Shown here piece after piece: positions 4,475 to 35,599 of a stretch of 40,068 nt of DNA. The DNA comes from Myxococcales bacterium (lineage in GTDB: Bacteria > Myxococcota_A > Polyangia > Nannocystales > Nannocystaceae). The position numbers were made by a program, and so were the translations under genes. The stretch covers positions 1 through 40,068 of the forward strand of contig JAAZXR010000038.1 of assembly GCA_014240065.1 (NCBI GenBank). Direction: 5' to 3'. The notes below the pieces were generated by a model. That model did not search any database. It had not been told where the DNA came from and was given only the letters and a program-made list of their open reading frames with translations. Numbering within the stretch: the stretch's first letter is position 1; each line of letters starts with the position of its first letter.

Positions 4475-6375
4475 AGCTCGCCGAGGTCCTCAAGCTGCTC
4501 GAAGAGGACTTGATCACGCGCATCGATCGAGGTGACTACGACGGTGTGGCGCGGCTCCTTGAAGATCGTGAGGACCACCTGCACGCCGCGGTCCTGTGGG
4601 AGACGACCTGGGATTTTGAGCGAGCCTGCCAAGCTTATCTCGCGGCCGGCGCGCTCATCGACGGGCTGCGGTGCGCGCTGAGTACATCCAACACCGCCCT
4701 CGCCGACGAGGTGATCCAGGCGTTCGCTTCAGCTTCGGCGCCCGAGCGGAGCGCCGCCGAGGCCCTCTTGCGGCGACGGAAGCGCTCCGGACTCTTGGCC
4801 AGTCTGCTCTCCCGCCCCGGCGGGGATCCGAGCGCTCACAGCGACGCGCTCGCCGACGCGGGAGACCTCCTCGGCGCGGCGACGGCGCTCGCCGACCGCG
4901 GGAGATATGACGAGGCCCTCCAGCGGCTGCGACCCATCGACGAGGAGCAGTCTCCTCTCCCACACATCGAGCTCGCGGCGTCACTCCACTGGAGACTCGG
5001 TGACGCCGAACGAGCCGCGACGCTCTCCCAGCACGCGCTCCGGCGCGGCGCGTCGGGGAGCCTTAATCGGCAGGTCCTCGCCCCAGCCCTCGTCGCGTTG
5101 GGGCACGGGCTCGCCGCCGACATCGTGCAACGGCGCGCGCCCGCGCAAAACGAGGCGGCCTCTGGTGACGCCGCGCCCCGCCGCGGACGGTACCTGGTGC
5201 AGGGTGTGTCTCCGCACCCCTTCGCAGGCCGAGCCCTCCTGGCCATCGACACCATCGAACATCGCGAGGTGGAGATCCATGATCTGCTGTCCGAGAGCGG
5301 CCACGCGACCCACGGGAGCCCCGAGGCCGCGGACGTCGTTCGCGATTTTATCGAGGCCGCGTTGGCGGCCGCTGAGCTGCGCCATCCCGCGCTCCGCCCC
5401 ATTCTCTGGGGAGATGTCAACGCCGGGCTCTTGATCTTGGAGCGCGGCTCCAAGACGACGCTCCGCTCGCTCATTCGCCCCCCAGGTTTGCTCCAGGATC
5501 AGCTGCGAGTGAAGGCGATGATGCTCTTCATGCTCCGAGGCCTCGCCGCCGCCCACGACCGCGGGCTCGTCCACGGGGCGTTGTTCCCGAGCCTCATCGT
5601 CTTCGATCCGGCCGAGCGCCCCTTGCTGTCACCCTTTGGACTGCATCGGCTCTCTGCGATCGTCGCGACGCGCACGGGGAGCCTCGACGAGCTGCTCTCG
5701 TTGACCGCGCCGGAGGTGAGGGCTGGTCGCGCGCCTACGCCTGCTTCCGATATTTTCTCTCTGGGTAGGATCCTCGCGGCGCTCGCGTTGGGACAGATCT
5801 CCGAGGAGGTCTCCGGGCTCCCGCCGCAGCTTCGTGAGCTCGTCTCGTCGATGACCTCCGAGGCGCCCGAAGATCGCCCCTCCGCCCGACGAGCCATGGC
5901 CCAACTCAGCGCAGCTCGAGATGCGAGCGCCTCCGTGACCACCGCGCGCCTCACCTCCTCGGTCCTCGGTCCTCGCGAACAGACCTCCGAGGTGGCCGAC
6001 CCGTCGCCGCCTCCATCGCTCGCGCACGCCCTCGCGACAGCGCACGATTCGTGGCGTGATGAGGAGCTGGAGATGCTCTGCAGCGAGAGTCACGGTTTCA
6101 TGCAGCCCATCCTTGATCGTCAGGCGCGACAGTTCTTGGTCGCGAGGTGGCCCCACGGTTGCGCGGTCGTCGACATCGGTGAACGCTCCGGCGAAGCGGC
6201 TTCGCGCCCCCTGTTTGAGGCTATCGAACGGCTCCCGCCGACCCTCGCCGCCGCCCTGCGCGGTCGCATGTCGCACGCAAGCGTCGTTCGAACGCCCGCC
6301 GGCGATTGGATGCTCTCCCTCGATGACCTGCTCGGTCGAGGTCCGGAGGACTCAGGCGGCGCAGCGAAGGCCTAG
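4471..6375 (+). CDS. TPR-like / protein kinase-fold protein lacking catalytic residues (pseudokinase)
   Basis: The 634-residue product has two recognisable parts. Residues 1-220 are helical, TPR-like repeats (for example GDYDGVARLLEDRE, GDLLGAATALADRGRYDEAL, LGDAERAATL). Residues about 240-530 match the bacterial Ser/Thr kinase fold: AAAHDRGLVHGALFPSLIVF (about 359-378), an APEV motif (413-416), SDIFSLGRILAALALG (426-441) and PEDRPSARRAM. However, the catalytic HRDLKPEN is HGALFPSL, so the Asp, Lys and Asn are all replaced. DFG is SPFG (387-390). The beta-3 VAIK lysine position reads VEIH and no glycine loop is visible. Phosphotransfer is therefore unlikely, and a scaffold or ligand-binding role is inferred. 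A further alpha/beta-looking segment of about 80 residues ends the protein. The GTG start at 4471 overlaps the upstream stop by four bases. The stop is tail-to-tail with tetR, overlapping by four bases. Confidence 0.85.
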   Translation: MKLAEVLKLLEEDLITRIDRGDYDGVARLLEDREDHLHAAVLWETTWDFERACQAYLAAGALIDGLRCALSTSNTALADEVIQAFASASAPERSAAEALLRRRKRSGLLASLLSRPGGDPSAHSDALADAGDLLGAATALADRGRYDEALQRLRPIDEEQSPLPHIELAASLHWRLGDAERAATLSQHALRRGASGSLNRQVLAPALVALGHGLAADIVQRRAPAQNEAASGDAAPRRGRYLVQGVSPHPFAGRALLAIDTIEHREVEIHDLLSESGHATHGSPEAADVVRDFIEAALAAAELRHPALRPILWGDVNAGLLILERGSKTTLRSLIRPPGLLQDQLRVKAMMLFMLRGLAAAHDRGLVHGALFPSLIVFDPAERPLLSPFGLHRLSAIVATRTGSLDELLSLTAPEVRAGRAPTPASDIFSLGRILAALALGQISEEVSGLPPQLRELVSSMTSEAPEDRPSARRAMAQLSAARDASASVTTARLTSSVLGPREQTSEVADPSPPPSLAHALATAHDSWRDEELEMLCSESHGFMQPILDRQARQFLVARWPHGCAVVDIGERSGEAASRPLFEAIERLPPTLAAALRGRMSHASVVRTPAGDWMLSLDDLLGRGPEDSGGAAKA

Positions 6376-23073: not shown

Positions 23074-23651
23074 CAGCGCTCCCCCTGCCTGTCTCGCCAT
23101 TTTGCCATCACGAAGTCCTCCGGGTTCACCACGGCCGTCAAGTTCAACACGATGAGCAACTTGCCTTCGCGTCGGGCGAGCGCGAACACGAAATCGCTGT
23201 TCACGGAGCCGGCGGCGCTCAAGACGCTCGGCGGCTCTCGCAGCGACTCGGGTTCGAGTGACACGACATCGATGACCTCGTCCACCAGCAGCCCGAACGC
23301 GTCCGAGTCGATCGACACCACCAAGACCCGAGAGGCCCGGGAGATCGAGGCGGGTGACAGCCCGATCCGAGAGGCGAGGCACAGCACGGGCAACAGCTCC
23401 CCACGGAGCGTCCCGACCCCGCGAACATACGCCTGCGTCCGCGGCACCGCCGTGACGGAGAAACACCGCGTGATCTCCCGGACGTGCCGAATGGGGATGG
23501 CGTGGATCTCCGCGCCCAAGCGAAACGACACCATGCGCACGAGGTCATCGCGGAGGCGGCGGCTATACCCGTGCTCGTACTCCGCCTCCGTCGCGATGAC
23601 CTCGCCGCTCTGCAAGAGCGCCTGCCAGAGCCCATGGTCGGGTTCGCTCAC
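23073..23651 (-). CDS. cheW: CheW-like coupling protein (first copy)
   Basis: The 192-residue CheW-domain protein has LVRMVSFRLGAEIHAIPIRH, VREITRCFSVTAVPRTQAYV, GVGTLRGELLPVLCLASRI, VLVVSIDSDAFGLLVDEVID and LLIVLNLTAVV. It differs from the other copy by an N-terminal extension of about 35 residues. Two different CheW genes in one operon suggest an array with two coupling interfaces. The GTG start at 23651 overlaps the cheA stop by four bases (GTGA). Confidence 0.93.
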   Translation of the reverse strand: MSEPDHGLWQALLQSGEVIATEAEYEHGYSRRLRDDLVRMVSFRLGAEIHAIPIRHVREITRCFSVTAVPRTQAYVRGVGTLRGELLPVLCLASRIGLSPASISRASRVLVVSIDSDAFGLLVDEVIDVVSLEPESLREPPSVLSAAGSVNSDFVFALARREGKLLIVLNLTAVVNPEDFVMAKWRDRQGER

Positions 23652-25846
23652 GCCCTCATGCCCTCCACGCGGCGTCGATCACCGGTCCCAAAATCTCGGA
23701 CCGCGTCAGACACAATCGCGGCCAGGTCGAGCAGCAACACCGTCTTCCCGGCCCCAATCTCGGTGGCGCCGGCGACCCCCGGCACCGCGTCGAGACCGGG
23801 CCCGAGCGATTTGATGACGACGTCTTTTTGTTCCAACAGGTCATCCACGACCAAGCCCACGCGGTGCTCCGCGAGCCCCACCACGATCACGTAGAGCTGG
23901 CCGTCGCCGGGCTTTCGCGGGAGATCGAAGATGCGATCCAAATAGACGATGGGGAGGGCCTCTGATCGGAGGCTGATGACCTCAAACCCCTCGATGGTCT
24001 CGATCTCTGAGCGCTCGAACATGAGCGACTCGAGCACGCTCCCCAAGGGCACGCAGAACATCTGCCCGCCGCCCTCGATGACCAGGGCTTGAATGATCGC
24101 CAGGGTCACCGGGAGCGTGAGGCGAAACAAGGTCCCCTTGCCGACTTCACTCTCCACGTCAATCTGTCCCGACAGGCGCATGATATTGGTCTTGACCACG
24201 TCCATGCCCACCCCTCGACCGCTCGATCGAGAGAGGTCATCAAGCGTAGAGAAGCCCGGCGCGAAGATCAGCCGCAGCGCCTCGATGGAGGTCATGACCT
24301 CCGCCTCCTCTCGGGACACCAGCCCCCGCGACACCGCCCGCTCCCGCAGCGCCAACCAGTCCATCCCCTGGCCATCATCCTCCACCCGAATCTCCACGGA
24401 GTTTCCGCGCTGCCTGGCGACCAACGTGATCTTCCCAGTCAGAGATTTTCCCGCGGCCGACCGCCGCTCGACGGACTCGATCCCGTGATCGATCGCGTTG
24501 CGAATCATGTGCATGAGCGGATCACTGAGCTCCTCCACGATGAGCTTGTCTAGCTCCGTTTGCTCCCCGGAGACCACCAGCCGCACCTCTTTCCCGTGCT
24601 CGCGGCTGAGCTTGCGTACGACGCGGGCGAGGGTGTCGAACATCTGACCGACAGGGACCATGCGCACGTCGAGGATCCGATCCCGCAGCTCGTCGATGCG
24701 CCGCGCCATCTGTCGGGTCTGCACGTGGAGCGTCCGCACCTCCGGGACCCCGCGAAGAGTGTTCTCCGCGCGCGCGATCGTGCGCGTGAAATCGCCTTGA
24801 ATTACACGAAGTTCCCCCACAAGGTTCATCAGCGCATCGAGGCGTGAGAGCTCCACCCGGACCGTCTGTACGACGCTCCGAATGGACTGCGGCGGCTCCT
24901 CCACTCCCTCGCTCCCCGGCGCCGATCCAGCCGACCCCGCGCCCGGGAGCCCCACCGAAGACGCGACGCTGCCAACCTCGCGCGGCGTGGCGCTCGGCGG
25001 CGCCCGCCGCTTCCCGGATCCACCGTCGGTGATCGCGACGTCGTCTGGCCGCGTGCTCTCGTGCCCGCGGACCACCGGCACGCCCTCATCGCGCCCCGGC
25101 GATCTTCCGCCGGTGTTGAGGCGCTCGATCGAGGCGGTTTCTCCCGTGAGGCTCGCGCGCAGGACTTCGAGCCCCTCGCCCGATCCGACGAGGATGTCGA
25201 GATCGATACGATCCTCCCGGCTCGCGTCCGCGCTCGGGAGGTAAGTCAGCACCTCTCCGAGCTTCTTGAGCTTCGACTTCAGCCGCTCGATGCCCCCGTC
25301 CACGTCCATCAAATCGAAGGAGACATGGATGGAATAGATCCCCCGGCCCCCCCCGATATTCTCTCGCAGCCGAAACTCCTCGTATTCTGTCAGCACGCTC
25401 CGGACGTCCTCGTGCAACCAGTCGAGAGACACCTGCTCCTCCGCGGATCGGGTCGCGGGTCGCGCGGCTCCTGTGTCTTTGATGCGCGACAAGAACGAGG
25501 TCACATCCGGCACGGCTCGCGAGGGCTCCACCGCGTGAGCCAGCGAGGCCGTATACAGGTCAACCGCGGCGAACAGGAGGTCGAGGCTGGATGCGTCGAG
25601 GGCCCGCTTTCCAAGCCTGATATCGTCGAGGCAGTTTTCGAGCTCATGGCTCAACGCCACCAGCTGTCCCACCTCCACCATCGACACGATGCCCTTGAGG
25701 GTGTGGATCGAGCGAAACGCCGCGTTGACGAGGTCAGGATCGGAGTCTCGCCCCCCGCTCCGCTCCGCCTCGATCTGGAGCAAGCTCCTCGAGAACTCCT
25801 CGACGAGGTCCTGAATTTCAGAGAGCGCGGTCAGCTGAGACGTCAC
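23648..25846 (-). CDS. cheA: Chemotaxis histidine kinase CheA
   Basis: The 732-residue kinase has an N-terminal Hpt domain with phosphoacceptor His48 (FRSIHTLKGIVSM). A mixed alpha/beta domain follows (about 150-250; GIYSIHVSFDLMDVDGGIER). Then come a low-complexity Ser/Gly/Pro linker, a dimerisation helix pair (SRLDALMNLVGELRVIQGDF), an ATPase domain (HMIRNAIDHGIES, VEDDGQGMDW, GRGVGMDVVK) and a C-terminal CheW-like domain (FCVPLGSVLESLMF, GLVVDDLLEQKDVVIKSLG). It autophosphorylates in response to receptors and passes phosphate to the receivers encoded on either side. There is no fused receiver. The GTG start at 25846 overlaps the stop of the upstream receiver gene by four bases. Confidence 0.96.
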   Translation of the reverse strand: MTSQLTALSEIQDLVEEFSRSLLQIEAERSGGRDSDPDLVNAAFRSIHTLKGIVSMVEVGQLVALSHELENCLDDIRLGKRALDASSLDLLFAAVDLYTASLAHAVEPSRAVPDVTSFLSRIKDTGAARPATRSAEEQVSLDWLHEDVRSVLTEYEEFRLRENIGGGRGIYSIHVSFDLMDVDGGIERLKSKLKKLGEVLTYLPSADASREDRIDLDILVGSGEGLEVLRASLTGETASIERLNTGGRSPGRDEGVPVVRGHESTRPDDVAITDGGSGKRRAPPSATPREVGSVASSVGLPGAGSAGSAPGSEGVEEPPQSIRSVVQTVRVELSRLDALMNLVGELRVIQGDFTRTIARAENTLRGVPEVRTLHVQTRQMARRIDELRDRILDVRMVPVGQMFDTLARVVRKLSREHGKEVRLVVSGEQTELDKLIVEELSDPLMHMIRNAIDHGIESVERRSAAGKSLTGKITLVARQRGNSVEIRVEDDGQGMDWLALRERAVSRGLVSREEAEVMTSIEALRLIFAPGFSTLDDLSRSSGRGVGMDVVKTNIMRLSGQIDVESEVGKGTLFRLTLPVTLAIIQALVIEGGGQMFCVPLGSVLESLMFERSEIETIEGFEVISLRSEALPIVYLDRIFDLPRKPGDGQLYVIVVGLAEHRVGLVVDDLLEQKDVVIKSLGPGLDAVPGVAGATEIGAGKTVLLLDLAAIVSDAVRDFGTGDRRRVEGMRA

Positions 25847-26806: not shown

Positions 26807-27298
26807 CTACGCTCCCGGCGCGTCGTTGGCATCACCGACGAAGGCTGCGACGATGCCGTTCACAAACTTCCCCGAGCGCTCCGCCCCATACCGACCCGCC
26901 AACTTGACCGACTCCGCCGCGATCACCGACGCGGGCGTCCCGAATTTCCCCCGCGACTCCGTGCACGCGATGCGCAGCACGTTGCGGTCGACCTGATCCA
27001 TCCGCGCCAGCCGCCAGCGCTCCGAGACCCCTTCGAGCGCGGCGTCGACCTCGGCCCACTGCGCGAGGAGCCCCTCGAGGAGCGCGTCCGCGAAGGCCCG
27101 CGCGGTCGGGTCGTTGTCCAGCCGCCGCGCGAACGACTCCCCGACCTCATCCGCCGGCGCCTGCTCCCAAAACTCTGCCACGTCTGACTCGCGACGCCCG
27201 GCCCCGACTTGATCGAGGTGACACGCGCCCAAAAACGCGATCTCTCGACCGAGCGCCCTCCCCGAAGCGGCTCCGCCGGCATCCCGCGAGGCGCTCAT
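26807..27298 (-). CDS. nusB: Transcription antitermination factor NusB
   Basis: The 163-residue all-helical protein binds boxA RNA with S10 in rRNA antitermination complexes. The family blocks are clear: an N-terminal LGREIAFLGACHLDQVG (the usual ARexALQxLY equivalent), ARAFADALLEGLLAQWAEVD, RWRLARMDQVDRNVLRIA and TPASVIAAESVKLAGRYGAE followed by RSGKFVNGIV. The ATG at 27298 overlaps the ribH stop by four bases. The ribH-nusB pair is a conserved arrangement in many bacteria. Confidence 0.95.
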   Translation of the reverse strand: MSASRDAGGAASGRALGREIAFLGACHLDQVGAGRRESDVAEFWEQAPADEVGESFARRLDNDPTARAFADALLEGLLAQWAEVDAALEGVSERWRLARMDQVDRNVLRIACTESRGKFGTPASVIAAESVKLAGRYGAERSGKFVNGIVAAFVGDANDAPGA

Positions 27299-27840
27299 TT
27301 TTTCGCCCTTCGAACCTTCGTTGGCTTCGCGGGCTTGGCCTTGAGCTCTTCGTACACGTCGATCATCTCCACCGCCGTGAGGGCCGCCTCAGCGCCCTTG
27401 TTCCCACACTTCGCCCCCGCCCGGTCCATCGCCTGCTCGAGCGTGTCGGTGGTCAGCACCCCGAAGACCACGGGCACCCCAGTCCGCGTCTGGAGGGACG
27501 CGAGTTCACTGGCGGTCTGCCCCGCGATCAACTCGTAGTGCAAGGTGTCCCCGCGAATCAGACATCCAAGCGCCACCACCGCGTCGAACTCCCCAGACGC
27601 CACGGCTTGGGCCGACGCTCCCGGGAGCTCCCACGAGCCCGGCACGCGCACGATGGTCACGTCTTCGGGGCTCGCGCCCGCGCGGCGCAGCGCGCCGACA
27701 GCACCATCCAAGAGCGGCTGTGTCACCAGCTCGTTGAACCGGCTGACGACCAGACAAATTTTGGCGCCAGAAGCGTCGGTGGTGCCCTCGATGGTTCGGA
27801 TGCCGTCGTCGTCGCGGATCATGACAGGGACATAACCCAT
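27295..27840 (-). CDS. ribH: 6,7-dimethyl-8-ribityllumazine synthase
   Basis: The enzyme condenses a ribityl pyrimidine with 3,4-dihydroxybutanone phosphate in the penultimate step of riboflavin synthesis. Motifs in the 181-residue product: CLVVSRFNELVTQPLLDGAV, VPGSWELPGASAQAV, VALGCLIRGDTLHYELIAG and PVVFGVLTTDTLEQAMDRAG followed by GNKGAEAA. The catalytic His is in RGDTLHYE, where most homologues have RGxTxHxD/E. A C-terminal Lys-rich tail is added. The ATG at 27840 has GGGGAG about 7 bases upstream; the frame opens further but without family similarity. No FMN riboswitch is visible in the short upstream gap. Confidence 0.95.
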   Translation of the reverse strand: MGYVPVMIRDDDGIRTIEGTTDASGAKICLVVSRFNELVTQPLLDGAVGALRRAGASPEDVTIVRVPGSWELPGASAQAVASGEFDAVVALGCLIRGDTLHYELIAGQTASELASLQTRTGVPVVFGVLTTDTLEQAMDRAGAKCGNKGAEAALTAVEMIDVYEELKAKPAKPTKVRRAKK

Positions 27841-27892
27841 GCAAATCTCCCCGCGCAAGCTCCGCCGACGCCCGGGCTTGCCGCGACCAGCA

Positions 27893-27928
27893 GAAAAAGC
27901 ACAGACCCGCCCCACAGGACGGGTCTGC
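27893..27928 (-). terminator. Intrinsic terminator of rpsA
   Basis: Perfect 8-bp arms CAGACCCG (27902-27909) and CGGGTCTG (27920-27927) flank a 10-nt loop and are followed on the minus strand by TGC and TTTTT (27894-27898). It lies 25 bases after the rpsA stop and separates rpsA from ribH. Confidence 0.85.
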
Positions 27929-27951
27929 AACGGCACCTACGTAACAGGTGC

Positions 27952-30633: not shown

Positions 30634-30861
30634 ATGGAACGAACGGTCGGCCCCCTCCTCCGCGCCTGCGTAGCCACGACGCTCCTCGGAACCACCGGAT
30701 GCGCGATCACCCCCCCCTCCCAACGCGGACTGCTCGCGCAACCCGAGATGGACCCCGCCCTCGAGATCGAGGAGGAGACCTTCCACAGCCACATCGAAGC
30801 GGCCCGGGAGGCCGGTTTCGGAGGCCACGGCGCCCAGGGAGGCGGCTGCGGCTGCGGATGA
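30634..30861 (+). CDS. DUF4266 small lipoprotein with Gly/Cys-rich tail
   Basis: The 75-residue protein has a lipoprotein-type signal (hydrophobic stretch ending LLGTTGC, Cys23). The DUF4266 core follows: TPPSQRGLLAQPEMDP and a helix with HIEAAREAGFGG. It ends in a glycine-rich tail with paired cysteines (GGGCGCG). DUF4266 genes are typically found beside DUF3570 genes, as here; the function of the pair is not known. The ATG at 30634 begins the signal peptide. The stop overlaps the DUF3570 start by four bases (ATGA), so the two are translationally coupled. Confidence 0.85.
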   Translation: MERTVGPLLRACVATTLLGTTGCAITPPSQRGLLAQPEMDPALEIEEETFHSHIEAAREAGFGGHGAQGGGCGCG

Positions 30862-32057
30862 TCCCTCTGCCTCAGCGACGCTCGCCTCCCAGATTCGCGC
30901 GCGCGGCCGCCCTCGCGGCGCTCTTGCTCGCGGCGCTCGCGGTGCTGTCGTGGCCCTCACCGGTGGACGCGGAGGACCGCATCTTAATTCGCGGCAACTA
31001 CTACCGTGAACGCAGCACCCGCGTGCTCCAGCCGTATATTTCGTTCTCCAAGGATCTGCCCGACGAGCGCCTCACCATCGGCGCGGACTACCTGATGGAC
31101 GTGATCTCCAGCGCCTCCATCGGCGCGGCCGCCCTGCAGCTCGGCGGCGACAAGGTCTTCACGGAGATGCGACACGAGGCCGTCTTGCGCGTGGCGTCGC
31201 GCCTGCGGGATTGGAGCGTCGGATCATTCTTCCGCTACTCGACAGAGACCGACTACGAATCGAGGAGTTTCGGGCTCTCCTTGGCCCGTGACTTGCGCCA
31301 AAAGACCATCACTGTAGGCGCCAACTACGGCTACACCAACGACCGCGCGTTCCGGATCCTCGCGAACGTCCCCGGGGTCCGCATCCCATGGAAATCCAAG
31401 GTCCCCACCCAGGACGACCCGAGCGATTTCGTGGACGGTCCGAGCAACGTCCTCCAGGTACACAACGCGTCCCTCGGCTACAACCACGTGCTCACCCGAG
31501 CGCTCCTCGCCTCCCTCCAGATCGAGGGGAGCCACGCGCGGGGCCCGCAAGAAAACCCCTACCGTCGGGTGCGCAACGGCATGGAAGAGGTGCACCCGCT
31601 GCTCCGCCGGCGGCTGGCCGTCTCGGGTTCGGCGCGCTACGCGGTCCCGAAGGCGCGCCTCGTCTTCGAACCCCGCTACCGCTTCAGCGCCGACGATTGG
31701 GGGATCCGCACCCACGCGCCGCAGCTCCGGCTCCACATCCGCGTCATCCCAGAATTGCGCCTTCGCGCGCGATACCGATATTACACCCAGAACGCCTCCG
31801 ATTTCTGGTCTGCGACCGGCGACTACAGCGCCACCGACCGCTACCGCACCGCCGATCCAAAAATGGGGGCGTTCGACTCCCACACCGCGGGGCTGCAAAT
31901 CACCTACCGATTCGATAAACTCGCCAAGACCCCGACCACGAGCTGGCTTCGCGGCTCATGGATTCAGGCGACGTACGACCATGTCTTTGTGGACCGAGAC
32001 GAGTATCGATTTGGCAACGCGCGCATCGGGAGCCTGGCGCTCTCTGTCCCGTTTTGA
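30858..32057 (+). CDS. DUF3570 outer-membrane beta-barrel-like protein
   Basis: The 399-residue protein has an N-terminal signal peptide (positively charged start, hydrophobic Ala/Leu core, cleavage after SPVDA at about residue 36). The mature part is a series of alternating amphipathic strands such as RLTIGADYLMDVISSASIGA, VGSFFRYSTETDYESRSFGL, TITVGANYGYTNDR, LRLHIRVIPELRLRARYRYY, GLQITYRF and the last strand IGSLALSVPF ending in Phe. This is the signature of an outer-membrane barrel, and the DVxSSAS segment is typical of DUF3570. Transport or secretion is possible but not shown. The next gene starts within its last 77 bases. Confidence 0.88.
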   Translation: MIPLPQRRSPPRFARAAALAALLLAALAVLSWPSPVDAEDRILIRGNYYRERSTRVLQPYISFSKDLPDERLTIGADYLMDVISSASIGAAALQLGGDKVFTEMRHEAVLRVASRLRDWSVGSFFRYSTETDYESRSFGLSLARDLRQKTITVGANYGYTNDRAFRILANVPGVRIPWKSKVPTQDDPSDFVDGPSNVLQVHNASLGYNHVLTRALLASLQIEGSHARGPQENPYRRVRNGMEEVHPLLRRRLAVSGSARYAVPKARLVFEPRYRFSADDWGIRTHAPQLRLHIRVIPELRLRARYRYYTQNASDFWSATGDYSATDRYRTADPKMGAFDSHTAGLQITYRFDKLAKTPTTSWLRGSWIQATYDHVFVDRDEYRFGNARIGSLALSVPF

Positions 32058-32979
32058 TCGGCGGGCGGTGCTCGCCGCCTCGACCTGCCTGCTGCTGTGC
32101 GCAGGGGCGTGCGGGGGCGGCGACGCGGCTGACGAGTATCCCCTCTCCCTCGAGAACGGACCTCCGGCCGAGCTCCTCGACGCCCTGGAGGCGGAGGGCC
32201 TCGACGACGACGCTGCCATGGCGCGCTTCGAGCAGGTCATGCTGCTGAGCGACGCCTACCGGACTCGCCAAAAAAACCCGGCGCTCCGACAGCGTGATGA
32301 TGCAGACGGGCGAGCATTCCGGGCCCGAGCCACGCTGGCGAGGCTGTGGCTCACGGAGGTCTTCGAGCGCGATCATGGCTCCGAGTCCCTCCCCGCAGAG
32401 GCGTACTCCGCGGAGCTTCGACGGATCCAGTTTGGTCGGGTCTCCAAGCTCTGCCAGGTCATCCTCATGCCAAAAGGGCTCGAAGGCGACGCGCTCACCG
32501 AGCGCACCCAGAGCGCAGAATTCCGCGAGGTCGTCCGCGGTCCTGCGAACGACCTCACGGCGCTCCTCCGGACCTTCGTCACCGACAACTCACGAACCAA
32601 GCCTTGCGAGATCTTTCAGCGCGTCGTCCACACCTACGCCGGGCCAAGGAACCAGAACATCCCCGAGGGGATCACGATTAAACTTGAGTCGGCCGCGATG
32701 GACACCTGCAACGAAGAGCTGTGGGTGAAGCCATGGGTGGACGCGGTGTGTCCCGTGGAGGAGTTTTCCACCCTCGATCCCGTGTGGACAAAATATGGTG
32801 CCCACGTCGTCACTGTGCTCGACGTCCTCCCTGCGTCGACGCTCAGCGCGGAGGAGCAGGACTCGCTCGCGCGGGAGCAAGCGACCCCCGCGTGGCGAAC
32901 GAAGCGCCTCGCGGCGGAGCTCGAGCGCCTCGCGCAGCGCTTCGACGTGGGCATGTCTCGGGACCTGCCTGCGCCGTGA
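31981..32979 (+). CDS. Lipoprotein with divergent parvulin-like (PpiC) domain
   Basis: The 332-residue product has a positively charged lead (RFDRRA), a hydrophobic stretch and a lipobox-like LLLCAGAC, then an acidic linker, consistent with a lipoprotein. The middle is helical. The C-terminal half (about 150-300) contains segments like the first and last strands of parvulin prolyl isomerases: RVSKLCQVILMP and TKYGAHVVTVLDVLPAST, the latter followed by a SAEEQ helix as in SurA/PrsA-type foldases. The similarity is faint and several active-site positions cannot be assigned, so this is tentative. The start is uncertain. The ATG at 31981 overlaps the DUF3570 gene by 77 bases; a GTG at 32068 would shorten the overlap to none but would lose the basic lead. 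Confidence 0.65.
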   Translation: MSLWTETSIDLATRASGAWRSLSRFDRRAVLAASTCLLLCAGACGGGDAADEYPLSLENGPPAELLDALEAEGLDDDAAMARFEQVMLLSDAYRTRQKNPALRQRDDADGRAFRARATLARLWLTEVFERDHGSESLPAEAYSAELRRIQFGRVSKLCQVILMPKGLEGDALTERTQSAEFREVVRGPANDLTALLRTFVTDNSRTKPCEIFQRVVHTYAGPRNQNIPEGITIKLESAAMDTCNEELWVKPWVDAVCPVEEFSTLDPVWTKYGAHVVTVLDVLPASTLSAEEQDSLAREQATPAWRTKRLAAELERLAQRFDVGMSRDLPAP

Positions 32980-33404
32980 TTCACACCTCTCGCGCAGCAC
33001 CGCGCGCGCTCGTACATGCGCCGCTCAACCTGGGCGTATCGGAGATCGGTGACCGCCTCGGCCTGCTGCTCACCTCGGTGTTGGGGAGCCTCGGCGCGGT
33101 CGTGACCGATTCCTACGGCGACACCATCGACTACGCCTTTGATCGCCGCAGGGCGTCACTGCTGGACGTGGAGCTGACGGGCGCCCAGGTCGGGCAATCC
33201 ATCGAACGGCTCCGGAGCATCGCGGTCATCTTCGGCCTCGGGGACCCCTCGATCCTGTTGGATGGCCATGAGGGCTCCCTGATCGTCCGTGGAATCGACC
33301 ACCAATGCACCCTCGCCATCATGCTCGCGCGCGGCGCAAACCTCGCCCAAGTCTGGCGTGAGATTCCGGCGCTGCTCCGCGATCTGGAGGTGCTCTTGAG
33401 GTGA
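32976..33404 (+). CDS. Roadblock/LC7-like protein
   Basis: The 142-residue protein has the outline of a Roadblock/LC7 fold: LLTSVLGSLGAVVTDSYGDT, DYAFDRRRASLLDVELTGAQ, GQSIERLRSIAVIFGLG, SILLDGHEGSLIVRGID and CTLAIMLARGANLAQVWREI. This class includes MglB, which regulates the MglA GTPase in myxobacteria, but no GTPase gene is adjacent. The assignment is moderate. The GTG start at 32976 overlaps the upstream stop by four bases (GTGA), placing it as the last gene of the DUF4266/DUF3570 operon. It may be a regulatory or scaffold subunit. Confidence 0.65.
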   Translation: MIHTSRAAPRALVHAPLNLGVSEIGDRLGLLLTSVLGSLGAVVTDSYGDTIDYAFDRRRASLLDVELTGAQVGQSIERLRSIAVIFGLGDPSILLDGHEGSLIVRGIDHQCTLAIMLARGANLAQVWREIPALLRDLEVLLR

Positions 33405-33469: not shown

Positions 33470-33830
<361 letters not shown>

Positions 33831-33867: not shown

Positions 33868-34860
33868 ATGACCCTCCGTGGGGAGCCCGCCCAGCGATTT
33901 CGCGCCGGCCGATTTTGGTCGGCGTTTGCGCGTCTTGGAATCGGCGTGGCGGCCTTCGCGGGCGTGCTGGTGTGGTTGCTCCCGGACTGGCGATCCCTGG
34001 TGGAAGACTTCTCGCCGTCTCCCTCCGGCTTCGCCCTCTCCTTGCTCGGGACGGCGCTCGCGAGCCTCGTCACCGCGCGCCGCTGGCAGCTGTTACTTGA
34101 GGCCATGGGCGGCGACCGCCTCCCATTTTTCATCTACCTCCGAGCGCTCGTCGTCACGCGGCTGCTCGGTCAATTCGTGCCCGCCATCGCCGTCGACTTG
34201 GTGGGCCGCGGGGTCGCGCTTCGCCGCGCCGGCAGCGAACAAGGCCTGGGCCACGCCGCCACGCAGGTCGTGGTGGAGCGCCTGCTCGATCTCCTCTTGC
34301 CCCTCGGTCTCGCGGCATGGATCCTCGTCTCGCCACCCGCGGCCACGGCGAATGACGTCGCGACGCCGCTCGTCTTCGTGACGCTGGTCGCGGGGCTGTT
34401 CGTCCCGCTCGTGAGCCCCATCGCGCGGCTCGCCATCGCGCTCTACGTGCGCGTGTCTTCGATGCGAGCGAGGTCCGACTCGCCTCGACTCAACGCCGGT
34501 CGTCCTGTGAGCGTTGACATCGCCACCGCCGCCCGGGTCTCCGCGCTCAGCGTCGCCCGGCTGCTCACCGTGACCTTGCAATTCTTTGGCGCCGCGGTCG
34601 CTGTGGGGCTGGTCGTCACCGGCCCCCACATGATCGGCGCCACCGGCGTCGCGCAGCTCACCGGGCTCGTCGGGCTCACCCCGGGCGGCCTCGGCCTCAT
34701 CGAGTGGGGCTGGGCGGGGGCGTTCAAGCACTTGCTCGCCGATCCTGTGCGGGTCGCTCAGTTCGTCTTGTGCCAGCGCATGTGTGTGATCGGCAATTTT
34801 GCGATACTGTCCCTGCTCACCAGTTTGCGGGGCCGCGACGCGACGGCCGTCCCCAAATGA
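33868..34860 (+). CDS. Lysylphosphatidylglycerol synthase-type flippase-like membrane protein (UPF0104)
   Basis: The 330-residue integral membrane protein has about seven or eight transmembrane helices. The family landmarks are ALASLVTARRWQLLLEAMGG (the RW motif after the second helix), ALVVTRLLGQFVPAIAVDLV followed by GRGVALRRAG, ATQVVVERLLDLLLPLGLAA, and late LTGLVGLTPGGLGLIEWGWA with the conserved PGGLGxxE. The family is the transmembrane flippase region of MprF and its stand-alone relatives, proposed to translocate lipids. No synthase domain is fused. Start at the ATG 33868; the frame opens a little upstream without support. It is followed 10 bases later by the queuosine transporter gene. 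Confidence 0.88.
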   Translation: MTLRGEPAQRFRAGRFWSAFARLGIGVAAFAGVLVWLLPDWRSLVEDFSPSPSGFALSLLGTALASLVTARRWQLLLEAMGGDRLPFFIYLRALVVTRLLGQFVPAIAVDLVGRGVALRRAGSEQGLGHAATQVVVERLLDLLLPLGLAAWILVSPPAATANDVATPLVFVTLVAGLFVPLVSPIARLAIALYVRVSSMRARSDSPRLNAGRPVSVDIATAARVSALSVARLLTVTLQFFGAAVAVGLVVTGPHMIGATGVAQLTGLVGLTPGGLGLIEWGWAGAFKHLLADPVRVAQFVLCQRMCVIGNFAILSLLTSLRGRDATAVPK

Positions 34861-34870
34861 GAGCCCTCCG

Positions 34871-35599
34871 ATGAGCGTCCCCCCCCTACGTGATCAGGCC
34901 TACGAGCGCGTCTACCTGCTCCTCGGCGCGGTGTTCATCGCGGCGTTGGTCGCCTGCAACCTCATCTTCCAGAAGTTCTTTGAGATCACGATCCCGCTCC
35001 CGGGGGGCGGCTCCTATCAATTCCAGCAGTCGGTGGGGCTGCTCGCCTACCCGGTCACCTTCCTCGTCACCGACGTGCTCAGCGAGGTCTACGGCGCGCG
35101 GAGGGCCAACCGCGTCGTGGCCGTGGGCCTGGTGGCGAGCCTCTTCGTGGTGGGGCTGGTGGCCGTGGCCGACGCCGTCCCGAGCGCGCCCTTCGGCATC
35201 GGGGGCGAGACGTTCTCCCGTGTGTTTGGGCTGTCGTCCGTGGCGGTGTTCGCCTCCATGACCGCCTACCTCGTCGCGCAGTTCATCGACATCCGCCTGT
35301 TTCATTTTTGGCGGAGGCTCACCGGCGGTCGACACCTGTGGCTCCGCAACAACGCGAGCACCTTCGCCTCACAATTCCTCGACACCTTCGTCGTGCTCGC
35401 CCTGCTGGCGACCTTCGCGGCGAAAAGCGGCATCACCTGGGACCGTGTCCCGGCGCTGTTCTTCAACGGCATCCTCTTCAAGTGGGCCTTCGCCCTGGTC
35501 GACACGCCCTTGTTTTATCTCGCCACCCACCTGTCCCACCGGAGCTTCGGTCCCCAGATCGCAGCGGTCCACGGCCACGACCCCTCTGCGCCGCGGTAG
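34871..35599 (+). CDS. Queuosine precursor transporter (YhhQ / VUT family)
   Basis: The 242-residue inner-membrane protein has about six transmembrane helices. It shows the family signature YPVTFLVTDVLSEVYGARRA, FGIGGETFSRVFGLSSVAVF, ASMTAYLVAQFIDIRLFHFW, LRNNASTFASQFLDTFVVL and FNGILFKWAFALVDTPLFYL. Members import queuine or preQ0/preQ1 for tRNA modification. The ATG at 34871 begins the conserved region; the ribosome-binding site is weak (GAG). It is convergent with smc, and 233 bases separate the two stops. Confidence 0.92.
   Translation: MSVPPLRDQAYERVYLLLGAVFIAALVACNLIFQKFFEITIPLPGGGSYQFQQSVGLLAYPVTFLVTDVLSEVYGARRANRVVAVGLVASLFVVGLVAVADAVPSAPFGIGGETFSRVFGLSSVAVFASMTAYLVAQFIDIRLFHFWRRLTGGRHLWLRNNASTFASQFLDTFVVLALLATFAAKSGITWDRVPALFFNGILFKWAFALVDTPLFYLATHLSHRSFGPQIAAVHGHDPSAPR

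Follow-up and report, generated by a model that had tools for sequence, protein, structure and literature searches.

What function could unite a DUF4266 lipoprotein, a DUF3570 protein, a parvulin-like lipoprotein and a Roadblock protein in a single run of overlapping genes? Such a run occupies positions 30,634 to 33,404 of contig JAAZXR010000038.1 from a Myxococcales bacterium of the family Nannocystaceae (assembly GCA_014240065.1), whose positions 1 to 40,068 are hereafter called the window. It is quite possible, though far from assured, that these genes constitute an outer-membrane flavin/thiol redox module of Nannocystaceae, which would have been formed from two older units and in which a foldase would have been retooled. 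The operon offers a concrete and testable system for the function of DUF3570 and DUF4266, and its comparison between genomes brings to light a widespread gene pair encoding a parvulin-like lipoprotein and a Roadblock protein.

A conserved operon of four overlapping genes

The four genes, the third and fourth of which are referred to as gene 3 and gene 4, are real and under purifying selection, as indicated by ratios of nonsynonymous to synonymous substitution rates (dN/dS) against a congener (G001) of 0.10 for DUF4266, 0.09 for DUF3570, 0.24 for gene 3 (after the overlap) and 0.13 for gene 4, together with a GC content at third codon positions (GC3) of 0.82-0.84. DUF4266 and DUF3570 exceeded their Pfam cut-offs (51.7 against 27 bits, and 106.9 against a gathering cut-off of 25 bits, respectively), and PF12094 was matched by all 19 DUF3570 relatives (E up to 0.01). 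As single sequences, genes 3 and 4 gave nothing significant in Pfam, NCBIfam or PDB; alignment profiles and structural models place them, in agreement with the original prediction, among the SurA/PrsA-type parvulin relatives and in the Roadblock/LC7 fold, respectively. Gene counts given below rest on homology, since a gene caller overlooked both DUF4266 and gene 4 here.

Overlaps of 4, 77 and 4 bases had been noted at the outset, and the gene coordinates and both short overlaps (ATGA between DUF4266 and DUF3570, GTGA between genes 3 and 4) stand as described. The overlap of DUF3570 with gene 3 measures 77 bases from the ATG at 31981 but would shrink to 47 bases if the TTG at 32011 were the true start; both starts are common to the congener. 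At locus L076 an ATG is found at the same distance from the DUF3570 stop as the TTG of the window, and this difference fits the DUF3570 residue encoded there, which is Phe before Gly (TTTGGC) in the window and Tyr in L076; locus L075 likewise has an ATG at this distance, but its DUF3570 frame is broken. Fifteen Nannocystaceae loci hold DUF3570 and gene 3 on one contig and, with L075 not judgeable, an overlapping in-frame start for gene 3 is available in 13 of the remaining 14 (the exception is L073). No later start precedes the lipobox in L076, and the sole later start in L090 leaves about six residues ahead of it.

Among 29 Nannocystaceae genomes (G000-G028), DUF3570, the parvulin and the Roadblock gene lie in this order on one contig in 15, including the genome with the broken DUF3570 frame (G004, locus L075), and Roadblock and DUF3570 share a contig in 20. 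The last two genes thus do recur beside DUF3570 in relatives, a recurrence whose absence from every relative had been named as fatal to the idea of a coupled operon. Contig ends cut the cluster in three genomes (G010, G016, G024), and no DUF3570 was found in G016, which is 72% complete. When two peptides conserved in this DUF3570 subfamily were used to scan a collection of named genomes from 84,980 species, 28 loci were returned, among them loci of Plesiocystis pacifica, Enhygromyxa salina, Paraliomyxa miuraensis and Nannocystis and of two records that carry the family name Nannocystaceae. Twelve of these had both parvulin and Roadblock, five had Roadblock only, six (Nannocystis) had neither, two lay at a contig end, and three were distant DUF3570 proteins (28-30% identical) with neither partner; the scan is not an independent count, since it mostly recovered the same genomes as the 29-genome sample.

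Origin of the parvulin-Roadblock pair

Of 240 genomes from the class, 220 were matched by the gene 4 profile, with many of the hits probably falling on other Roadblock proteins. Among the matches listed, 48 genomes of other families had both a place for gene 4 and a place for gene 3 (the latter from 116 genomes searched), and in 37 of them the Roadblock gene directly adjoined the parvulin gene in the same orientation. Gene order was read in 20 high-scoring loci outside the family, of which 17 held a parvulin relative by profile and one more (L184) by a broader profile; an upstream lipoprotein of L181 was treated as a parvulin relative in the alignment, and L177 was cut by a contig end. The order rpsA and cmk (divergent), two membrane-protein genes, parvulin, Roadblock, DUF4350, MoxR and DUF58 is shared by L170, L174 and L179, and by L180 with rpsA outside the view; L177 has the part from Roadblock onward, and L173 and L175 have the first part. 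A locus from family f6 (L171) carries rpsA, cmk, parvulin, Roadblock and a ferredoxin gene, DUF3570 being absent from this stretch.

In Nannocystaceae, the slot between cmk and the parvulin gene is occupied by DUF4266 and DUF3570; elsewhere it holds the two membrane-protein genes, neither of which was found in the nine family loci scanned. This occupation of the slot suggests that the operon consists of two units brought together, and the gene orders indicate that the parvulin-Roadblock pair is older than its association with DUF3570. The original prediction had viewed genes 3 and 4 as replacements for the usual partners of the DUF3570 pair, an ApbE-type flavin transferase or a TlpA-like thioredoxin. 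It is borne out insofar as no ApbE gene adjoins the window copy and genes 3 and 4 are conserved there; replacement itself was rejected, as the two genes form an older unit that was not made for the DUF3570 pair. A literature search covering titles and the starts of abstracts, with subscription journals mostly outside its scope, returned nothing on the parvulin-Roadblock pair among the matches listed. In a collection of 5.39 million papers, a single one mentions DUF3570 or DUF4266 by name.

The MoxR-DUF58 arrangement that follows the pair and DUF4350 in L170, L174, L179 and L180 was not found in seven Nannocystaceae loci with the pair that were scanned. DUF4350 was matched in all 29 family genomes (59 relatives searched; E 4.9e-17 to 9.8e-4), away from the cluster. 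In five of five loci of family f8 (L096, L097, L183, L185, L188) the pair points toward a short lipoprotein gene whose product ends in GPRRL, with a CpaF-like ATPase gene (by eye) beyond it in all four loci reaching far enough.

Sequence changes in the parvulin-like lipoprotein

The alignment profile of gene 3 matches SurA, and Rotamase_2 was matched in nine of 19 aligned sequences, three of the 19 coming from other families (E up to 0.1; best 1.7e-9; the window protein is not among the nine). The structural model (mean predicted local distance difference test score, pLDDT, 80.8) has SurA chains as its best matches; the template modelling (TM) scores from Foldseek are low, about 0.2 with whole chains and, for single peptidyl-prolyl isomerase (PPIase) domains, no more than about 0.5 of the target, and the result is used solely as support for SurA/PrsA likeness.

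For residue comparisons, 18 family sequences were aligned with 42 outside rows representing 41 distinct genes (L186 and L203 are the same); an initial 36 rows were supplemented by L174, L176, L178, L179, L184 and L186, and L177, cut by a contig end, was left out. Every one of the 18 family parvulins carries two cysteines, Cys158 and Cys209, that none of the 41 outside genes has; the Cys209 column sits in an insertion, where 40 of the 42 outside rows have a gap. The alignment position that we take, from Pin1 and SurA, to be the first catalytic His is never His in the family (Gln in 17, Asn in one), as against 30 of the 41 outside genes; the other 11 outside genes also lack it, five of them with Gln, and all 11 are without the two cysteines. 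Neither cysteine occurs in L171, where the pair and ferredoxin occur without DUF3570 in the stretch. On these substitutions, gene 3 is probably not an active PPIase in Nannocystaceae.

Beyond the lipobox, 14 of the 18 family parvulins have exactly four cysteines and the other four exactly two. The extra pair is spaced 9-14 residues apart, and its columns in the window protein and the two nearest relatives differ slightly from those in the other 11. Because the cysteines come in even numbers and appear or disappear together, they point to disulfides, which in gene 3 would be expected to join Cys158 to Cys209 and Cys243 to Cys257. Gene 3 thus resembles the SurA/PrsA chaperones in profile, fold and the FGxH His, which all 18 family members retain, but differs from them in being a lipoprotein, in carrying Gln or Asn at the first catalytic position and in its invariant cysteine pair. 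It seems plausible that the foldase was retooled in Nannocystaceae, losing the catalytic His and gaining a fixed cysteine pair, and that it may act as a thiol or chaperone partner. The family offers an example of a foldase that lost its first catalytic residue while, within a single lineage, cysteines of the disulfide type went to fixation.

DUF3570 as a predicted flavinylated barrel

According to Meheust et al. 2021 (PMC8238504), the DUF3570 protein of Chlorobium luteolum is flavinylated by ApbE at two [S/T]GA[S/T] sites, and clusters of DUF3570 with thioredoxin, DUF4266 (CXC) and DsbD are pointed out. The earlier description of DUF4266-DUF3570 as a known but functionally unexplained pair is therefore correct as to the pair and needs amending as to the function, DUF3570 being an experimentally shown ApbE substrate. 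PMC12052999 gives the consensus of the ApbE site as D-x-x-[S/T]-G-A-[S/T], with about half of the modification kept after a change of Gly to Ala and with Ser a poorer acceptor than Thr. By this rule the window protein contains a candidate site, DVISSAS. Across 19 relatives its Asp, second Ser, Ala and last Ser do not vary, and its fourth position holds Ser or Thr; flavin mononucleotide (FMN) may be covalently bound to Ser87.

ApbE was found in all 29 Nannocystaceae genomes, and one copy of the window genome follows an apparent nqrF (by eye). The original prediction placed an ApbE or a TlpA-like thioredoxin near this pair in other genomes, and both situations do occur near other DUF3570 copies in the family: in L100 an ApbE gene is located 1.8 kb from a DUF3570 copy on the same contig, and in L108 a thioredoxin gene adjoins one. 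In comparison with the clusters described in PMC8238504, the window has the same pair, the CXC tail and a flavinylation-type motif in the same stretch, but it has one degenerate site instead of two, no adjoining ApbE, and neither thioredoxin nor DsbD among its neighbors as far as these were read, and it adds the parvulin lipoprotein, Roadblock and ferredoxin. The CXC of DUF4266, which is CGC in the window copy, is kept in 20 of 20 copies adjoining this DUF3570 subfamily, and CGC is found near the end of the protein in 30 of 30 homologous open reading frames examined.

DUF3570 is a probable 16-strand outer-membrane barrel, the strands having been drawn by eye, not blind and without a shuffled control. 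On one side, six of seven turns have 3-4 residues and are constant in length (the last turn has 12-13), and length variation is larger on the other side, in five loops and at the end of strand 13 beside loop 7; hydropathy alternates by at least 1.5 units in 12 of the 16 strands, and the C-terminal residue is Phe or Tyr in 19 of 19 sequences. Short turns and the C-terminus of outer-membrane barrels are usually periplasmic. By this rule, the loop of 22-23 residues that contains the flavin motif (residues 81-103 in the window protein) would be extracellular or folded into the lumen of the predicted barrel, a placement that would explain flavin redox chemistry reaching or crossing the outer membrane.

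A marginal Pfam match to MtrB_PioB over the C-terminal strands (23.3 against 23 bits, 3e-5; found in two of 19 relatives) gives DUF3570 a weak likeness to the MtrB/PioB conduits and makes an electron conduit conceivable; unlike in those systems, which have a multihaem cytochrome in the same operon, no CxxCH is present in the four proteins or the ferredoxin, to which the search was confined. The fullest version of this idea, a 16-strand flavo-barrel with its FMN site in a long extracellular-side or lumenal loop, conducting electrons across the outer membrane without haem and fed by DUF4266 and a thiol-redox parvulin, appears rather improbable.

Proposed function and alternative explanations

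From the computed domains, conservation, overlaps and residue changes, we infer a mechanism in which flavinylation, barrel topology, electron flow and the roles of the partners all stay conditional. The DUF3570 barrel in the outer membrane would carry FMN at Ser87, attached in the periplasm by an ApbE from another part of the genome, and DUF4266 would be its lipoprotein partner, handing on electrons or disulfides through the terminal CXC. The DUF4266-DUF3570 pair would have been placed behind cmk and ahead of the older parvulin-lipoprotein/Roadblock pair; the retooled parvulin would be a periplasmic chaperone or thiol partner reserved for the barrel, standing in for the thioredoxin found with DUF3570 in other clusters. 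The Roadblock protein would be cytosolic, and its gene is linked more closely with the neighboring ferredoxin gene than with that of the barrel.

Several findings weigh against such a redox module. The candidate site has Ser where the consensus has Gly, which is a real weakness, since the change of Gly to Ala alone roughly halves modification (PMC12052999). The second flavinylation site is lost and replaced by GGD, so that of the two [S/T]GA[S/T] motifs described in PMC8238504 only a degenerate first one is kept, and the ApbE genes lie on contigs C176 and C11, apart from the cluster on C167. Hydropathy alternation is weak in four of the 16 drawn strands (8, 9, 15 and 16), and a DUF3570 profile search of PDB returned no barrel. 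The cysteine pair of the parvulin is not CXXC, and structural disulfides are possible; cause and lineage of the cysteine gain are inseparable, because every parvulin-bearing genome of the family, so far as is known, also has DUF3570 (G016 being incomplete). The parvulin is moreover the least conserved of the four proteins between congeners (62% identity after the overlap, with the dN/dS given above). No parvulin was found in five of the 29 family genomes (G003, G009, G012, G013, G017), where Roadblock follows DUF3570, with a Pro/Ser-rich extension of the Roadblock frame filling the gap in G003 and G013. DUF3570 and Roadblock are far apart in six others (G020, G023, G025-G028), which are six of the seven genomes of genus g12 (Nannocystis by the named records; the seventh, G012, is not split), and no full-length parvulin relative was found in these six. 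The split Nannocystis genomes and the five others without parvulin imply that the barrel does not need the parvulin or Roadblock.

The same splitting of the two pairs in six Nannocystis genomes would be expected if DUF4266-DUF3570 had simply landed between cmk and an old parvulin-Roadblock operon, sharing transcript and translation with it while retaining separate functions. This hitch-hiking is possible but stays on the doubtful side: it agrees with the adjacency of parvulin and Roadblock without DUF3570 in the 37 of 48 genomes of other families (among the matches listed) and with the Roadblock gene keeping ferredoxin, not the barrel, as its neighbor in the two Nannocystis-type loci read, but it does not readily account for the retention of this gene order in 15 of the 29 family genomes, for the overlapping start available at 13 of 14 loci or for a parvulin that changed in exactly Nannocystaceae.

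It is unlikely, in turn, that this DUF3570 subfamily is an unflavinylated structural barrel or porin, an explanation that would be compatible with hitch-hiking as well as with the assembly unit considered below. The conversion of the second motif to GGD, the missing Gly of the first and the lack of an adjoining ApbE could all be understood in this way; however, the Asp, Ser, Ala and acceptor Ser are invariant in 19 of 19 sequences, the L100 copy on a contig with ApbE is equally Gly-less at the first site (TSAS), and DUF4266 keeps its CXC in every adjoining copy.

The outer-membrane assembly or export unit with cytoplasmic control that was originally suggested found no direct support and is retained as an improbable rival, in which the SurA-like lipoprotein would fold this barrel specifically, without any part in redox chemistry, and would be regulated by Roadblock from the cytosol: SurA is the closest solved relative of gene 3 by profile and fold and the barrel and chaperone genes overlap, but the parvulin-Roadblock pair occurs without DUF3570 beside it, no inner-membrane link was seen on reading the four proteins, and gene 3 has lost the catalytic His, although SurA-type chaperoning need not use catalysis.

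Roadblock protein, ferredoxin and neighboring genes

Gene 4 has a Roadblock/LC7 fold according to its AlphaFold2 (AF2) model. Its best 50 PDB matches were Roadblock, MglB, MglC, MP1-p14 and Ragulator chains and one axonemal chain of unnamed subunit, the MP1-p14 and Ragulator chains being presumably Roadblock-type. TM scores against MglB chains are about 0.7, and the profile matched MglC (6e-5); Robl_LC7 was matched in seven of 25 aligned gene 4 sequences (E up to 0.1; best 6.1e-5), the window protein not among them. Although similar in fold to MglB and MglC, gene 4 sits instead with a foldase lipoprotein and a ferredoxin gene. A role as control component of the barrel was downgraded, since Roadblock keeps its ferredoxin neighbor where DUF3570 lies elsewhere. 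Two loci of genus g3 without parvulin (L074, 5214-5823; L084, about 4560-5030) have a Roadblock frame with a long Pro/Ser-rich N-terminal extension, which is repeated in L074. In L098 and L099 (Nannocystis-type, about 3-5.5 kb) an unrelated imelysin-like lipoprotein (by eye, no Pfam match) replaces the parvulin before Roadblock and ferredoxin, and a divergent TonB-receptor-like gene (by eye) lies near it.

The ferredoxin gene is part of the conserved array, following Roadblock in 23 of 25 Roadblock-holding family loci (not in L081 and L089), including both Nannocystis-type loci read (L098, L099). It may be transcribed apart from the four-gene operon, as both hexamers of a promoter-like site ahead of it (Table 1) are unchanged in the congener G001 (L072). 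In the stretch around the gap between cmk and DUF4266, 139 of 161 aligned bases are identical between the two congeners, coding ends included.

Table 1. Features of the operon and the adjoining ferredoxin gene in the window
Feature	Position	Strand	Evidence and remarks
DUF4266 lipoprotein, 75 aa	30634..30861	+	PF14086, E 1.6e-13; lipobox Cys and C-terminal GGGCGCG
DUF3570 protein, 399 aa, probable 16-strand outer-membrane barrel, C-terminal Phe	30858..32057	+	PF12094, E 1.4e-30; strands drawn by eye
Candidate ApbE flavinylation site, DUF3570 residues 81-87 (DVISSAS), acceptor would be Ser87	31098..31118	+	Motif rule of PMC12052999
Gene 3, SurA/PrsA-type parvulin-like lipoprotein	31981..32979	+	Possible true start TTG 32011; lipobox Cys44; SurA profile match 3.4e-8
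Gene 4, Roadblock/LC7-fold protein, 142 aa	32976..33404	+	GTG start; AF2 pLDDT 91.5; Foldseek top matches Roadblock3, MglB, MglC
Promoter-like site ahead of the ferredoxin gene, TTGACC-16-TACACT	33470..33497	+	One found against 0.3 expected by chance
4Fe-4S ferredoxin gene after the Roadblock gene	33540..33830	+	Fer4, 2e-7

Upstream of the operon, a putative lumazine synthase gene (ribH, riboflavin pathway; by eye) is located at 27298-27936 on the minus strand, just downstream of rpsA and divergent from the DUF3570 operon. A tblastn search found a ribH-like gene in many further family loci, on the side of rpsA where it lies in the window, and gave no match in outside loci, where the stretches were mostly too short. 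CheW- and CheA-like genes (by eye) are found further upstream, at 23076-25846 on the minus strand. Downstream of the ferredoxin gene, at 33868-35596, lie genes for a lysylphosphatidylglycerol-synthase-type membrane protein and a Vut_1 (YhhQ-type) transporter, and relatives of one or both are present near ferredoxin in many family loci.

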